From Nannochloropsis salina CCMP1776 (Eukaryota; Sar; Eustigmatophyceae; Eustigmatales; Monodopsidaceae): DNA of 64,000 nt. This document shows positions 56,507 through 64,000 of the stretch, one piece after another (within the stretch, counting starts at the first letter, position 1; the number at the start of each line of letters is the position of its first letter). The stretch covers positions 864,340 to 928,339 of the forward strand of contig SDOX01000019.1 in the NCBI GenBank assembly GCA_004565275.1. The letters are read 5' to 3'. A program made the position numbers and the translations under genes. Below the pieces are notes generated by a model, which was not told the DNA's origin, did no database searches, and saw only the letters and a program-made list of their open reading frames with translations.

Positions 56507-56792
56507 TTAACACACTTACCGCACTCCCTCCACATTTGCCACCCTTGAGTGTCGCCGTAGTACAAAGCAGCGGGCATCTGGTTTGGTCGTTATGAATAAG
56601 TAAGCATAGCTTCGTACGGTCTTGCCGTGTCGAGGTTCAAGGAACGGATAAACAACCGAGACCAAGCGAAGCGCGATATGCGTGCTTAAGGAAAGGCAAT
56701 ACCGCGATAGCCCCGTCTTGAGCAATTCATCAAAAACTGAGTCCAAACAACACAGATCTCAATCCGCATGCAACATTGTCGAGGCAATATTT

Positions 56793-57680
56793 ATGGCAAG
56801 AAAAGAGAAGGATACTAGCGCGAGACGAACGACGCAAGTTTTCAGTCTCCCTCTACTCGTACTGCTACTCAGCCGGCTCCCCCTCGCGTGCACGTTTAGC
56901 ACTCCCACAAGCAGCAGCGCCATCGGCATAAATCATGGCGATGTGCTAAAAACTCTAAATAATGCCGCCACTATCCCCCTGATCGATCGAGTCCCGACTT
57001 TTCGGTTTTATCAAGGTGGTTTGTGCCAACTGCAGGTATCAGGGCGAGGCGGCTTGGCCGAGTGCCGGGCCCGCCTGCATGTGGCGATCTCTACCCTGCT
57101 TAACAACAAAACATCGTCCAAACAAAATGAACGTGAAGAAATTCTCCATGAAGAGAACGGAGTCTCTCAAAGATGTTTAGTGGCTGGTATCGTGGAAATC
57201 GAGTCACTTCAGATGTTGGAGGGTATTCTTGAGAAGCAGCGAGTGCAGCAAAGTAGTACGGCGCAGAGTGTTTTAAGTGGTAGCAATTTGAATGATGACG
57301 TGTTACTAGTCAATTTCTATGGCAGATCTTGCAAGCAGTGTGCGGAACTCGGGCCTTTGTATGATACGCTGCCCTTCGTCTACAGGGACAAGAGCCTGAG
57401 ATTCGGACGAGCAGACGTCACAAACTTTCCCACACTTGTTGTTCCACCACCACCACCCCAAAATTTTGCCAGTTTGGATCGAAGTCAAAACATTGAAGAT
57501 CGTTTGGAGGGCTGCCCGCGCTGTGGGGGGGGGGGCTTCGTCGTTTGTACAGAATGTAATGGACAGGGACACCTGATACGAAGTGTAGGCGGGCACACGG
57601 TTGCAGACGTGTGTATGACCTGCGTAGGTCAAAGAAAAATCCCCTGTCCACAGTGCGGCGGGAAATGTTACTTGTGCTGA
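56793..57680 (+). CDS. Plastid-targeted thioredoxin-like protein with C-terminal DnaJ-type zinc finger
   Basis: A single exon encodes 295 residues from the ATG at 56793. A signal peptide (basic start, then 'VFSLPLLVLLLSRLPLACTF') and a Ser/Thr-rich stretch suggest secondary-plastid import. A thioredoxin-like fold follows: 'VLLVNFYGRSCKQC' with a CxxC redox pair at about 180/183 and 'RADVTNFPTLVV' with the cis-Pro. The last 55 residues hold four CxxC units in DnaJ zinc-finger order (CPRCGGGG, CTECNGQG, CMTCVGQR, CPQCGGKC), as in BSD2- and LQY1-like chaperones. The frame passes an 11-base G run (57525-57535) and stays in register with the zinc motif on both sides. A redox/chaperone role for plastid proteins is inferred. 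It is divergent from the four-helix gene, 0.29 kb apart. Confidence 0.85.
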   Translation: MARKEKDTSARRTTQVFSLPLLVLLLSRLPLACTFSTPTSSSAIGINHGDVLKTLNNAATIPLIDRVPTFRFYQGGLCQLQVSGRGGLAECRARLHVAISTLLNNKTSSKQNEREEILHEENGVSQRCLVAGIVEIESLQMLEGILEKQRVQQSSTAQSVLSGSNLNDDVLLVNFYGRSCKQCAELGPLYDTLPFVYRDKSLRFGRADVTNFPTLVVPPPPPQNFASLDRSQNIEDRLEGCPRCGGGGFVVCTECNGQGHLIRSVGGHTVADVCMTCVGQRKIPCPQCGGKCYLC

Positions 57681-58613
57681 TGTACAGACAATTGCATTGC
57701 GAATACGTGGAGAAATATAGAAAAGCAATATACGTAATGGAGAGGTCATAAGAATTTGTACTCGCTTTTTACCCATAAAATCACGCACGTTTGTAAGATT
57801 GGGCGTGAACATTAGCAATGCTTCTAAGACGATTCTTCATGCTATCACTGCTGTCTTATCGAGCTTTAAATACTATATTACTAATATGTACGATATATCA
57901 TAACTGTAAGAATATCGTCTGTATTTTCAACTATATATCCTCTTCGTAAGATACAAGAAAGCAGCAGCATCGTTTTGAATCTCTACAAGACCTGTAGCTT
58001 GATCAAAATTCAGTGTTGTCGCCAGAATTTTTTAAACAGCAAATTAGCCTTCGTTTTTCTTGGTGGTGACGTATGTGTCCGTAGCAACATTCCCTGCAAT
58101 GTAAGCCAACTCTTCTTTTATCATTTGCGCTGATTATAAGACTGACGATGCCTATGTAAAATACCTTGATAATTTAAAATTTTCCATCAAACTATTTTCC
58201 AACAGTTCTTCCAAAAAAGAACTCATAAACTTCTTTTAAAGAAAAGAAAAAGTCCGTTGGGCTGTCGTAATTCTTCCCCAAGTAACGGTCGGTTGGGGAG
58301 GCAAACGTGCGACCGTTTTGATTTGAGGTTGCAGCTGTATGCTATTTAACTCCCCGCCGATAATTCATCTTCTGTCCTACGTTCATCTTTGTCATAACAA
58401 CAACGTCAAGATCCATCTTGTCTTGATGACTAAGTCTTCATGTTGCCTATTCTGTCTCCGACTCGCCTCTCACGATGCTATGTGACCGGGCCCATTCCAC
58501 CTCGACATGCGTTCTATCTTATGTTCATTTCATGCTTTCTCAAAACCCAGGCAATAGAACCAATGACGAGTAACACGCTGTAATATACATTGCTCCCAAT
58601 AAGTTTGTCCACG
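57681..58613. other. Intergenic, AT-rich
   Basis: About 0.9 kb between same-strand genes. It has several A/T runs and no credible ORF, RNA or repeat. Confidence 0.45.
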
Positions 58614-61058
58614 ATGACCTCTGAACAGCAGCCGCCTTCATTCGTTCATTCGCGATATATTTTAGTGGACAACGACAGACTAATAAGCCGCAGTGAGGAA
58701 AATCACGGGGAAGCCAGTTCTCTTGAGTGCACGCAAGATGAATATCAAAGCTTGGTTGGAAACTTGTCAACATATGTGAAAGAGTATCTTAAAGCTCGTT
58801 TTAACCTCGTTCAGCAATGGATTCCACCTCCTTGTGACGATGGCACGGCGGCCAGGTGTGACATATTGGTCTCGGCCGAGTGGCAGACGGCCGCAAAGCT
58901 TTTGATCATTTTGCAAAACAATGTAGGCTCTCAACTGGGAATATGGAGTCGTTCCATATGCGTGAGCAAAGGTCTCAGGGCAGGTTCCACGCTTTCATTC
59001 TTGGAGAAGGCGTACGAAGCAGGGTACGCTGTCGTCATCTGTAATCCGAACCTCAATTCAGTCACGGTGGACGGGGGGAAAGTAGCAATTCCCGGTTCAT
59101 CCTTTCCTGAAGAACATGCTTTATATGTCTATGAGAACTATGTTGCTTCTTCCAAAGCACAACATGTATTCTTGTTTGGATACGGTAACGGGGCGATGCT
59201 GTGCAAAGAGATGCTTCAACGCCAGCTTGTGAGGTGTCAGCAGCAAAACGGAGAAGTAAATCGTATCGCCGGTATTGCTACGGTAGAGGCCAGTCAAATC
59301 TTACAAGAGGATGATTCGACGGACGTGAAAGCATTTCTGGGTGCATACGCAGTGGATTGGGAGTCCTCGCTCCGACTACCGCCCGGCCATGCCATCCCGA
59401 AGACCCGATTACGCTTAGGCGTGGCACAGGTGCTCTCTGTGGGCACTCCAGCAACACATGGGGATGCCATGGCAGCCAGTACAGCCTGGAGTGTCGTGGC
59501 AGCCTCGGACTCCGTTTTCCGTTTCTTCCAATTTTGCCTGGAGGACGCCCTCCAGCATCCTCCACCTCCCAATCTACCCTCTCCCTCAACACCTGCATCG
59601 AAGCCTACGATTGTCCACAACTCTAGCGACTCTCCGAAAGGCCGTCTTCTCATTCCCTTTATTTCTCGCGTCAGCAAATCTGGTAGGTCTAGCAATACGT
59701 GCGGCAGTCCCCGCGTCTCGGTGCCTGTGAGCAACCGAGGCCACCTCTTCGCCGTAGCCGAAGCAGCTTATTGTGGCGTTCCCGTACCCCAACCACCCAA
59801 CGATCGGTCCTCAGCTGGCCAATTGGCGGATTCTGTGGCACCCACCAGCTTCTCGTCTCCATCCCGTGCACGAGAGGATGATCATCGTCTAGCAAGCAGC
59901 ACTTTTTTCCGTCGGCTCCGGCGGATGGTTTCCAGTGGCTTGAGTTTCAATCGGACATCCTCGTCCGAGCGCGGTGCCCCCTTGTCACCTGGGGGCATGG
60001 ATTTAGAAAGGGCCTTGAGCAGCGACGGTGGTGATTGTCGGACTTTTGCTCTGACAGAGAGGCTTGGGATTGGAGACTTCGACCTGCTCAAGGTTGTGGG
60101 AAAGGGGGCTTTCGGAAAAGTCATGCTGGTGAAGAAGAAGAGCCGAGAGCATGGCGCGGGCAGAATCTACGCCATGAAAGTGTTAAACAAGGACACTATA
60201 GTCAAAAAGGGACAAATTGAGCACACAATGTCAGAGCGAGCCATTCTCTGTCAGATTCGTCACCCGTTTATTGTCCGTCTCCGATATGCCTTCCAGAACC
60301 AAACGAGTTTGTACCTGGTCACAGACTACTACACAGGGGGGTCACTTTTCTACCATTTACGGAAAAATGGATCCTTTGCTGAATCTCGCGCCAAATTTTA
60401 CGCTGCAGAGCTTTTGCTGGCACTCGAACACCTACACGAGCAGTTCATTATTTACAGGGACCTGAAGCTCGAGAACATTTTGATGGACTCAGAGGGGCAT
60501 ATAGCCTTGACTGATTTCGGTCTCTCGAAACAAAATGTCCGAAGTCAAGCCTGTGCAACGACATTTTGCGGCACAGCTGAGTATTTGGCTCCAGAATTGC
60601 TGCGAGGGAAGCCTTACGGGGCACCGGTTGATTGGTGGAGTTTTGGCATTCTACTGTTTGAAATGATGGACGGTCGGACTCCATTTTACAACAGCAACAG
60701 GAAATATATGTTCCATTGCATCGTTCACGTAAGGCCAACATTTCCGGCACACTTCTCAAAGGCGGCAAAGTCATTGATATTTGGGCTTCTGGAGCCAAAT
60801 CCCGCCCGGCGCCCTGGGCCAGCTCGCATCAAATCACACGCATTTTTCGCTGATATTGACTTTGAAAGGCTTTATCAGAAGAAGATTACACCCCCTTTTA
60901 ACCCGCGCGTCAAAAATGCAATGGACACCAAATTTGTGCCCAGCAACTACCATAAGCTTCCGCCCAAGGAATCTGTGACAGAGCCTACGGGCGCTGGGGT
61001 GTGCGCCGCGGCGGATTTTAAAGCTTTTACTTACCACGGAGAAGGTCATCTGGGCTAA
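58614..61058 (+). CDS. Arb2-domain / AGC-family protein kinase fusion
   Basis: A single exon encodes 814 residues from the ATG at 58614. Residues about 40-310 match the Arb2/FAM172 alpha/beta-hydrolase-like domain: 'LGIWSRSICVSKGLRAGST', 'EKAYEAGYAVVICNPN', 'FPEEHALYVYENYVASSKAQ' and a late 'SVFRFFQFCL'. Where that family has a Ser elbow (HSYGG-like), this protein has 'FGYGNGAM', with no Ser. A disordered Pro/Ser linker leads to a complete AGC kinase: Gly loop 'GKGAFGKV' near 490, 'YAMKVL', catalytic 'YRDLKLEN' near 614, 'DFGLSK', T-loop 'TTFCGTAEYLAPE' near 649, and C-tail hydrophobic motif FKAFTY near 801. The kinase resembles the Akt/S6K/PDK1-regulated group. Arb2 proteins are linked to Argonaute and heterochromatin factors. 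No PH domain is present. Confidence 0.93.
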   Translation: MTSEQQPPSFVHSRYILVDNDRLISRSEENHGEASSLECTQDEYQSLVGNLSTYVKEYLKARFNLVQQWIPPPCDDGTAARCDILVSAEWQTAAKLLIILQNNVGSQLGIWSRSICVSKGLRAGSTLSFLEKAYEAGYAVVICNPNLNSVTVDGGKVAIPGSSFPEEHALYVYENYVASSKAQHVFLFGYGNGAMLCKEMLQRQLVRCQQQNGEVNRIAGIATVEASQILQEDDSTDVKAFLGAYAVDWESSLRLPPGHAIPKTRLRLGVAQVLSVGTPATHGDAMAASTAWSVVAASDSVFRFFQFCLEDALQHPPPPNLPSPSTPASKPTIVHNSSDSPKGRLLIPFISRVSKSGRSSNTCGSPRVSVPVSNRGHLFAVAEAAYCGVPVPQPPNDRSSAGQLADSVAPTSFSSPSRAREDDHRLASSTFFRRLRRMVSSGLSFNRTSSSERGAPLSPGGMDLERALSSDGGDCRTFALTERLGIGDFDLLKVVGKGAFGKVMLVKKKSREHGAGRIYAMKVLNKDTIVKKGQIEHTMSERAILCQIRHPFIVRLRYAFQNQTSLYLVTDYYTGGSLFYHLRKNGSFAESRAKFYAAELLLALEHLHEQFIIYRDLKLENILMDSEGHIALTDFGLSKQNVRSQACATTFCGTAEYLAPELLRGKPYGAPVDWWSFGILLFEMMDGRTPFYNSNRKYMFHCIVHVRPTFPAHFSKAAKSLIFGLLEPNPARRPGPARIKSHAFFADIDFERLYQKKITPPFNPRVKNAMDTKFVPSNYHKLPPKESVTEPTGAGVCAAADFKAFTYHGEGHLG

Positions 61059-61550
61059 GATTGAGCCCTGAACATTTAGTGTCCCATGTAGTATCGAAAA
61101 TTCCGCCAAATTAATTCAAAGATCCAAAGAAGACGGTGCATGTTGCGAATTTGTCTTGCTTAGGAGGGCCTGCGGGTTGTTTGGCCGGGAGGTTAGCCGT
61201 TACTCCGTTGCCCGAATTTTTGAATTTCTTTCCTGAGAGCAGTTAAGGTGAAGGCGGGCGATGGACAATCACATCAGTCAAACCCGACCGCCCCGATGCC
61301 TCCGTGCGGCGGGCCTCCGGAATGTGATAGGTGACATTTTCCATGTGGCAGGCATGATTTTCTGCTGTTCCGAAGCCGAAAGAGTCTGTCACCTTATCAC
61401 CTTGTTGCCTGTAGAGACTACTTCGTCCTCGGCCCATCACCTTTCATCATAATCCGTAATACCTGCGCCCTCATACCCACATACTCGCAATCTATGTTAG
61501 GAGGGAAAATCTGGCAATACTGGGATTATTCCCTATTAAATATATTTTTC
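61059..61550. other. Intergenic
   Basis: This lies between the kinase gene and the channel gene, both (+). A 63-codon ORF at 61261-61452 is unsupported. The channel frame is open from an alternative ATG at 61494. Confidence 0.4.
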
Positions 61551-64000
61551 ATGTGGTCAAGCCATGAAGCTGGACACTCCGAAGTTCCCATTCGCGGTGG
61601 CTCTTCGGGACATGCAGTCGCGGAGGGCCTGACACCAGGCCTAGAGAGTGAAGGGGATGACTGCATATCATCCTTACCTGTCTCCAGTGATGGACCGGGC
61701 ACTCCGAATGGTTCTCACAGCGACGCAACCAATAGCAACACTTCTCCTTCACATGCCCCGGGACGACCATGGACACTACCTGCCGTCGACGGCCGTGCTC
61801 CCCGTCGCCGCGCTATGCCGGCCTCCACCTCCCAAGCTCCTCCCCGCGTGATGGTTCATCCTTTCGGCGTATTTCCTCCACAGGAAGATTCTGCTGAGGT
61901 CTGGGCCATCCGTCCCCGAGCAGGGAGTGGGAGGACGTCCCTAGGTCGCCGGCGTCGGTATGATTCGTACGTGAGTACGTTGGACCTGGACGACTTAAGA
62001 GAGCTCGATGACGAGCTCTTGCGCCGGGCAATTGGCGGGGAAGGCGACATCCCCGAGGAGGAAAATGAAAATGGAGAAGATGAAAGTCTCGGAACTCCCA
62101 GAAGGGCGGGCACCGGAACAGAGTCGGTACACTCGTGTCCACGGCGGGAGCGGAGGGAGGAGGACGGTGTGGAGAATGCTTGGTCAAGCAGTCAAAGGGG
62201 TAGCACAGGGTCGCACCATCGGCGGGAACGACTTTGTGATGAGATCAGCGGGCCTCAGGAGCGGAGAAGCCACCGTCAAGGCTTGGGGCGTCGGGCTCAT
62301 GTAGACTTGGCGGGTGCACGACCCTGTCGTGGGATTGACCATAATGCTAATGATAGCAGAGACTGCCGCACGCGCCACAGCATGCCGCATTTTCAACAGC
62401 AACCGAATATACACGCACAATCAGGACATAAACAACGGATGCCCGCTGTAAATCCCAATCGCTTGAGCGTATCTCAACAGCACTCTCCCTTCCGACCCCA
62501 CCGGGACAGCATCAGTCGCGGTGCGCCTCCCCCGAACCCGACATTTTACGACCCGAAAATGGGCGCCCTCCCACCCGCAGCGCCGAATGACAACGGTCCG
62601 TACGAGGAAGGTGCAAGGACGCCGCCAGTGTCTTATCGGCACTCGTCCTCCCGTCCTGCCCTGGAGGGTGGGATTCCGCAATTGCCCTGTGTCCAAGGAA
62701 GCACTAGCAACTCGCGCCTCTCCCGCCGTTCATCCTTGCGGCAGACCAGTGATGCAGCGGATGGGTACGGTGCGAGCTCGTACAGGAATAGTCGTCGTGA
62801 CAGCCGCATGAGCTTCGGCATAGGCTGGTTGTACGACCACGAGGATAGAAAGGAGGGAGGCGGAGAAAGGGGAGGAGGGGGTGGCAACGAGGGGAGTAGG
62901 CCGCCCTCTGCTTCTGGCCGTCGACCCAACAAGCGCACCCTTCTCCATTGGTTGGACCAGCGGCTTCCACATATGTCTGACGAGCACCGCATCGCCCGCG
63001 CGTCCTTGTACTTAAGTGACGCCATCGACACTCGGCCTGTGCGCATGCGTAACGGGGGCACTGGAAACTTATTCGCCTACCGTCTCTTAAAACGCACCGG
63101 CTGGTTGTGGATAATGCAAATTCTTGCCGTCGTCCATTTGCTTCTGGCCCTCTGGGAGCCTCCCCGGGCGTTGCCCGACTCGGCGCAATACCATGACTCT
63201 ATCTCCAGGCACACGCTTACAGGGGCGGCGTCCACTGCCAGGCATCTTCTCGGTCTGGAACTGGTTCTTGTCCTTCTCTTCTCCTTGGACTTGTGTTTAG
63301 AGATCTATGCCTTGGGCGTGGGGGCCTTTTTTGGGATGAACGCCCCTCCGCGTGTATTGGAGAACACTGGAAGCCGCAGTGGATTACAAGCCAAGCTATG
63401 GGGTCAATTCCGTTTGTTCTTGGTCATCCTCTTCTTCGCGGATATCTGCGCGGCATTGGACAGTCACAACGAAAGCCCTCGCTTTTCCCGGCCCTTGCGC
63501 CCTCTCTACCTCATCTGTCTCTCCGAGACCCTGAAACGCTGGAGCAGCCTTCTTCTTCGGCTTTTGGGCCAGCTACGGGATGTCGCCCTGGGCACAGGAA
63601 TTTTCCTTGGACTTTTCTCACTACTCGGCCTCATCCTCTTCAGCGAAACTGGTTATTATGCGGCCTCCATTCCTTATCTGAATTTTGACGATTTTTTGAA
63701 CTCCTTCCTGGCGCTCTACGTGCTTATGACCACGCAAAATTTCGGTGCCCTGCTGAACCCCGCCTACACTGCCAACCCTCAAGGGTCTTCGCCCCTATAC
63801 TTCTTTTTCTTCATGGCTTTCGTCCTCATCGTCGTTCTATTCCTCGCCCACTTAGCTTTGCCTCGGGTCTTCTGGGTGTACCAGAATTTCCAACGCCGAC
63901 AAGCCTACGAGAGTCGGATCCTGGAACGCCTCGCCCTTTTGATGACGTTTCGGTGTCTGGACCCGCAGCGACGCGGGTGGATCGATGTCACTTCCTTCCG
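61551..64000 (+). CDS. Two-pore-channel-like voltage-gated cation channel, 5' part (runs off window)
   Basis: The frame is open from the ATG at 61551 to the window end, 816 codons without a stop. The first ~500 residues are disordered, Ser/Arg-rich and cytosolic. A complete first six-helix repeat follows: S1 'LLKRTGWLWIMQILAVVHLL', S2 'LELVLVLLFSLDLCLEIYAL', S3 'FRLFLVILFFADICAAL', S4 with 'RPLRPLYLICLSETLKR', S5 'GTGIFLGLFSLLGLILF', a pore loop 'LYVLMTTQNFGALLNPAY', and S6 'LYFFFFMAFVLIVVLFLAHL'. The pore 'TTxNF...PAY' is the two-pore-channel (TPC) form. After S6 an EF-hand-like 'DPQRRGWIDVTSF' begins, matching the Ca2+-binding linker of plant TPC1. The family passes Na+ or Ca2+ across vacuolar or endosomal membranes. 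The second repeat would lie beyond the window. Confidence 0.88.
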   Translation, partial: MWSSHEAGHSEVPIRGGSSGHAVAEGLTPGLESEGDDCISSLPVSSDGPGTPNGSHSDATNSNTSPSHAPGRPWTLPAVDGRAPRRRAMPASTSQAPPRVMVHPFGVFPPQEDSAEVWAIRPRAGSGRTSLGRRRRYDSYVSTLDLDDLRELDDELLRRAIGGEGDIPEEENENGEDESLGTPRRAGTGTESVHSCPRRERREEDGVENAWSSSQRGSTGSHHRRERLCDEISGPQERRSHRQGLGRRAHVDLAGARPCRGIDHNANDSRDCRTRHSMPHFQQQPNIHAQSGHKQRMPAVNPNRLSVSQQHSPFRPHRDSISRGAPPPNPTFYDPKMGALPPAAPNDNGPYEEGARTPPVSYRHSSSRPALEGGIPQLPCVQGSTSNSRLSRRSSLRQTSDAADGYGASSYRNSRRDSRMSFGIGWLYDHEDRKEGGGERGGGGGNEGSRPPSASGRRPNKRTLLHWLDQRLPHMSDEHRIARASLYLSDAIDTRPVRMRNGGTGNLFAYRLLKRTGWLWIMQILAVVHLLLALWEPPRALPDSAQYHDSISRHTLTGAASTARHLLGLELVLVLLFSLDLCLEIYALGVGAFFGMNAPPRVLENTGSRSGLQAKLWGQFRLFLVILFFADICAALDSHNESPRFSRPLRPLYLICLSETLKRWSSLLLRLLGQLRDVALGTGIFLGLFSLLGLILFSETGYYAASIPYLNFDDFLNSFLALYVLMTTQNFGALLNPAYTANPQGSSPLYFFFFMAFVLIVVLFLAHLALPRVFWVYQNFQRRQAYESRILERLALLMTFRCLDPQRRGWIDVTSF

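Follow-up and report, generated by a model that had tools for sequence, protein, structure and literature searches.

Does one reading frame that joins an Arb2 domain to an AGC protein kinase in the alga Nannochloropsis salina CCMP1776 represent a single gene, and what might a hydrolase-type fold do at the head of a kinase? The frame lies in a stretch of 64,000 nucleotides (contig SDOX01000019.1, assembly GCA_004565275.1, positions 864,340 to 928,339 of the forward strand), hereafter the window, whose numbering is used below. It is uninterrupted from an ATG at 58614 to a stop at 61056–61058 and encodes 814 amino acids; the listed open reading frame (ORF) around it opens upstream, at a TTG at 58590. 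As read from its sequence, the frame is one real and conserved gene, and we consider it probable that the product is a PDK1/TORC2-type AGC kinase in which a non-catalytic Arb2 domain, through binding and/or dimerisation, acts as the regulatory module.

Gene structure and domain content

58614–61058, + strand: whole coding frame of the Arb2–AGC kinase, 814 amino acids plus stop; P0002 is identical, and 22 further proteins share the two domains
58647–59561, + strand: Arb2 domain, residues 12–316 (Pfam match PF22749 at residues 76–249, that is 58839–59360; structure model; fold matches)
59562–60074, + strand: linker, residues 317–487 (171 residues), mostly of low confidence in the model
60084–60848, + strand: AGC protein kinase domain, residues 491–745 (Pfam match), with GKGAFG, AMK, YRDLKLEN and DFGLSK all present

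A Pfam scan placed PF22749 (Arb2) at residues 76–249 (73.6 bits against a cut-off of 26.8) and PF00069 (Pkinase) at residues 491–745 (242.6 against 31.7), bearing out the original prediction of a FAM172-type Arb2 domain and a complete AGC kinase in a single ORF. The Arb2 assignment holds through PF22749; through the older model PF09757, which the prediction had named, it does not, the protein scoring 24.8 bits, just below the cut-off of 26.6. An Arb2 domain of histone deacetylase (HDAC) type was rejected on this score, and the scan of the 814-residue protein gave no match to the deacetylase domain PF00850.

Both domains occur on one chain in 22 further proteins (P0003–P0024) among the matches listed from a protein-collection search, which scores only proteins sharing exact words with the query (7990 candidates scored, best 120 of 253 listed). 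An identical 814-residue protein, P0002, is listed from a separate source, a 3083-base contig. Given this identical copy and the 22 further two-domain proteins, the two parts have not been joined by chance.

The reading most directly opposed to a single gene is that two adjacent genes have been read as one, with a hidden start or an intron in the linker. The linker invites it, being 171 residues long and partly of low identity between related species: P0006 of Nannochloropsis oceanica, 67% identical over its full length, shares 69% of the Arb2 domain and 86% of the kinase, and the figure drops to 37% at residues 317–370 and 25% at 391–428 (a comparison that left out some near copies). A second search, with a profile of Arb2 plus linker, returned 13 proteins, four of them new (P0122–P0125), and one of these, the gene model P0123, taken from a different source, contains the Arb2 part and then stops. 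The residues at its end, however, are not shared by its relatives, and P0122 and P0125 extend into the first kinase residues before they end. P0003–P0007, the close relatives in which separate genes would have spoken for a split, are all single-chain proteins. With 22 two-domain proteins, among them an MMETSP transcript labelled complete (P0014), and the identical full-length P0002, we give this reading next to no chance, and the two-gene artefact was rejected. P0122, P0123 and P0125 appear to be models of the same Arb2–kinase fusion that were cut short or misread.

An Arb2 pocket without its triad

59178–59192, + strand: nucleophile elbow G189-Y-G-N-G193, with Gly191 (59184–59186) at the catalytic Ser position
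59286–59288, + strand: Glu225, where the presumed catalytic Asp stands in kinase-free Arb2 proteins
59436–59447, + strand: loop S275-V-G-T278; kinase-free relatives read S-A-G-x-x-x-His, and here there is no His at that offset

When the sequence of the Arb2 part was searched against solved structures, the matches were weak (Clr3, E 0.5 with one protein; Hda1, 0.063 with a profile), and fold comparison was therefore used. The structure model of this part is confident (predicted local distance difference test, pLDDT, 89.6; predicted template-modelling score, pTM, 0.89), and among solved folds it is matched best by the Arb2 domains of Hda1 and Clr3; a hormone receptor with the hydrolase fold, GID1, is matched as well. 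The model places the elbow at the turn between strand 184–191 and helix 193–210.

The elbow reads GYGNG, as had been predicted, with glycine where the catalytic serine would stand. Across the fusions the elbow Ser has become Gly in 24 of 25 rows (the exception is P0019) and the triad Asp has become Glu in all 25, and the triad His is found at its fixed offset in none of the 25 (in P0123 this end is foreign sequence). Kinase-free Arb2 proteins carry the elbow Ser in 39 of 39 rows, the Asp in 38 of 39, and the His in 36 of 38, one further row being too short. Since the catalytic serine is lost, the Arb2 copy is probably a binding module, in agreement with the original prediction. The loss of the triad is not peculiar to this copy, the Arb2 domain of HDACs being already described as lacking it (PMC11878206).

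Might the Arb2 part still be an enzyme that works through other residues? P0019 (1219 amino acids) is the only fusion with an elbow Ser (GYSHG), and the N. salina copy has a histidine, H282, one residue past the usual position. In P0019, however, Glu likewise replaces Asp and the usual offset lacks a His, glycine occupies the elbow in the other 24 rows, and the shifted histidine is absent from N. oceanica P0006. A surviving enzyme is thus very improbable, and an active hydrolase was rejected on the lost triad. In a tree of Arb2 domains P0019 forms a long branch beside eustigmatophyte-type rows, and for this reason its serine may be secondary.

The same tree (56 of 64 rows, after eight fragments or near copies were removed by hand) unites 22 fusions in one clade, apart from the kinase-free FAM172-type proteins, with support of 100/100. 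Within the fusions, entropy in the former active-site loops averages 0.96 bits (34 columns) versus 1.87 bits in the other 251 columns, counted over 22 of the 25 rows with P0003, P0005 and P0123 left out; no permutation among 20000 was as extreme, a figure that serves as a guide only because the loops were picked after the alignment was seen. The same comparison in kinase-free Arb2 proteins gave 0.80 versus 2.15 bits. Gly105, Gly109, Ser112, Arg113, Gly193, Glu225, Ser275 and Gly277 do not vary across the 22 fusion rows examined; two of them, Gly105 and Glu225, depart from the catalytic form. In majority letters, the oxyanion loop reads GSG-x-VRAGQW in kinase-free proteins and N-x-x-GSQ-x-GIWSRS in fusions. 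The loops are conserved yet different in kind from those of the catalytic form, which fits a site rebuilt for binding; a decayed domain was rejected on this conservation. What the fusions offer is a hydrolase-fold pocket that has lost its triad and retained its conservation.

As in hormone receptors of the alpha/beta-hydrolase fold, such a pocket could receive a small molecule or a peptide, whose binding would set kinase activity. The pocket is not decaying, its invariant residues include two unlike the catalytic form, and the hormone receptor GID1 stands among the fold matches. We nevertheless regard this as a long shot. Were it correct, a hydrolase fold would have turned sensor in a soluble receptor kinase that is made in one piece and predates the divergence of oomycetes and ochrophyte algae, with a metabolite or peptide in the pocket controlling the kinase directly.

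Among kinase-free Arb2 proteins, two carry other Pfam domains: PF00515 (TPR) in P0144 and PF00627 (UBA) in P0133. Arb2 may thus have further partners.

Presumed kinase control and a possible tie to silencing

60558–60575, + strand: activation-loop motif TTFCGT, with the presumed PDK1 site Thr650 (60561–60563)
61017–61034, + strand: C-terminal hydrophobic motif FKAFTY, with the presumed TORC2-type site Thr806 (61029–61031)
59736–59774, + strand: short linker helix, residues 375–387 (blocks 371–380 and 381–390 at pLDDT 84 and 96)
59904–59936, + strand: basic-hydrophobic linker motif FFRRLRRMVSS, residues 431–441, with look-alikes in relatives

The kinase belongs to the AGC group and is complete and intact-looking. 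Its closest solved kinases are AKT (308 bits), SGK1 (292), RSK (286), PKC (270), S6K (266) and PKA (262), among the best 60 of 2693. The Gly loop, Lys and [YF]RDLK motifs are present in all 23 fusion rows (P0001, P0003–P0024), and DFGLSK and TFCGT in 21, P0011 and P0012 ending or diverging before these motifs. The hydrophobic motif, [FY]xxF[ST][YF], is found in 17 of the 23; P0011, P0012, P0016, P0017, P0018 and P0022 are short or diverging models. The PDK1/TOR-type features named in the original prediction are thus present as a PDK1-type T-loop and a TORC2-type hydrophobic motif. By analogy with other AGC kinases we take Thr650 to be the PDK1 site, and the protein would be phosphorylated by PDK1 and TORC2. 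Candidate genes for this machinery are present in the organism's own genome (26.5 Mb, 103 contigs). Kinase matches and a PH_3 domain lie close together at one locus (G000:C36:136725-138206), in frames of the same 788-residue length, and this is probably PDK1; TOR (FRB) and Rictor domains were also found.

The full-length model (pLDDT 77.6, pTM 0.52) is less certain than that of the Arb2 part, and within the linker pLDDT falls below 50 at residues 321–371 and 398–481. Look-alikes of FFRRLRRMVSS were found in 20 of 25 rows (P0001, P0003–P0024, P0122, P0125) with a pattern that was written after the alignment had been seen and has no control; three rows lack the motif, and in both Aphanomyces rows the pattern matched the end of the Arb2 domain instead. 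A role as membrane contact or docking site is a guess.

Several elements are established at the level of sequence: one gene, its domain content, the intact kinase and regulatory motifs, the loss of the triad, a single Arb2 clade, and presence in ochrophytes and oomycetes. The reading we favour places them in one scheme. An AKT/SGK/S6K-type kinase would be switched on through phosphorylation of a PDK1-type activation-loop Thr and a C-terminal hydrophobic-motif Thr. Animal AKT carries a PH domain, and in its place this kinase has Arb2, a FAM172-type alpha/beta-hydrolase fold without its triad. Arb2 most likely serves as a protein-binding and/or dimerisation module, placing the kinase on partners or letting two kinases meet. 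The linker between the two domains is long and flexible and includes a helix as well as the basic-hydrophobic motif.

A rival account lets Arb2 keep its FAM172/Arb2 role, so that it would recruit the kinase to complexes concerned with Argonaute, small RNAs or chromatin and let TORC2/PDK1 signalling reach silencing. Mammalian FAM172A binds AGO2 and homodimerises, according to one report (PMC10205598). The genome search with PF22749 returned one match, this fusion, and a kinase-free query, P0132, likewise matched only the fusion gene, with no second Arb2 found by this six-frame, exon-by-exon search; one Piwi/Argonaute-type locus, one RNA-dependent RNA polymerase (RdRP) and several deacetylase-type loci are present. 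PF09757 matched nothing in the genome, a weak result, because it matched nothing in control genomes and missed this gene too. Against the rival, the pocket and surrounding loops of the fusion differ from those of kinase-free FAM172-type proteins, from which the fusion clade also stands apart in the Arb2 tree. The Argonaute or heterochromatin link raised in the original prediction gains no direct support from these loci, and we judge the silencing account possible though unlikely. With one Arb2 protein and one Argonaute-type locus, a single knock-out could reveal any tie of the kinase to small-RNA silencing.

Two neighbouring frames were also observed. At 61494–63998 (+ strand) a frame running off the end of the window carries an Ion_trans domain (74.7 bits) and is a probable ion channel. 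At 56682–57680 (+ strand) a frame has a sub-threshold thioredoxin match (21.4 versus 23.5 bits) and a C-terminal run of CxxCxG-like motifs, which we take to resemble DnaJ-type zinc fingers.

Origin of the fusion and known systems

Named two-domain proteins come from N. oceanica (P0006; Eustigmatophyceae), Pinguiococcus pyrenoidosus (P0010; Pinguiophyceae), and Aphanomyces invadans (P0023) and A. stellatus (P0024; Oomycota for A. stellatus), and an Ochromonadaceae strain (Ochromonadales) contributes the Arb2 part in P0122, a model that stops shortly after the kinase begins. With Aphanomyces standing in for oomycetes, its fusions group with the algal ones in both trees. The Arb2 tree, which joins them at 100/100, sets the two Aphanomyces rows apart from the remaining 20 fusions (98/88). 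The kinase tree grouped the fusions at 72/21 with 39 rows, including a long-branched kinase of the same genome, and at 100/98 with 29 rows, after the removal of 10 more rows that were long or distant. The simplest account is one fusion before the oomycete/ochrophyte split, followed by descent; transfer between the two groups is not formally excluded. Spread by viruses was considered as well: a scan of viral contigs with set A1, which leaves out some near copies, worked through kinase patterns only, and its 73 matched stretches came down to one locus (L032) with a 26% kinase match, which says little on Arb2.

How does the protein compare with known systems? It resembles AKT/SGK/S6K-type kinases in its kinase motifs, T-loop and hydrophobic motif, and differs in its N-terminal module, which is Arb2 and not PH or PX. 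It belongs to the same domain family as FAM172A/ARB2A and the kinase-free Arb2 proteins (PF22749), with a conserved core; these mostly keep Ser, Asp and His at the triad and have no kinase listed, whereas the fusion Arb2 forms its own clade. The Arb2 domains of class II HDACs (Clr3, Hda1; PF09757) provide the best solved folds and are also described as lacking the triad (PMC11878206); unlike those enzymes, the present protein has no deacetylase domain and falls below the PF09757 cut-off.

The nearest precedent is PITG_06776. The literature searched (titles and abstract starts among the entries listed) yielded no other report of an Arb2–kinase fusion, and neither the fusion in algae nor full triad loss was found there in print. 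The original prediction knew of no kinase fusion, and this has to be corrected: the 2010 kinome paper (PMC3019232) describes PITG_06776 as a Phytophthora infestans AGC kinase with an N-terminal Arb2 domain. That paper lists orthologues from P. ramorum, P. sojae and H. arabidopsidis but none from diatoms, ciliates or apicomplexans, and it states that Arb2 is borne by no other known protein kinase; its Table 2 gives two Arb2 proteins within the AGC group. The N. salina gene is an algal member of this kind of kinase, with the same N-terminal Arb2 domain and AGC kinase on one chain. Unlike in that report, the fusion here occurs in Eustigmatophyceae and Pinguiophyceae, and Arb2 with the kinase start in Ochromonadales. 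What was a brief oomycete report thereby becomes a conserved stramenopile signalling protein, open to study in an alga.
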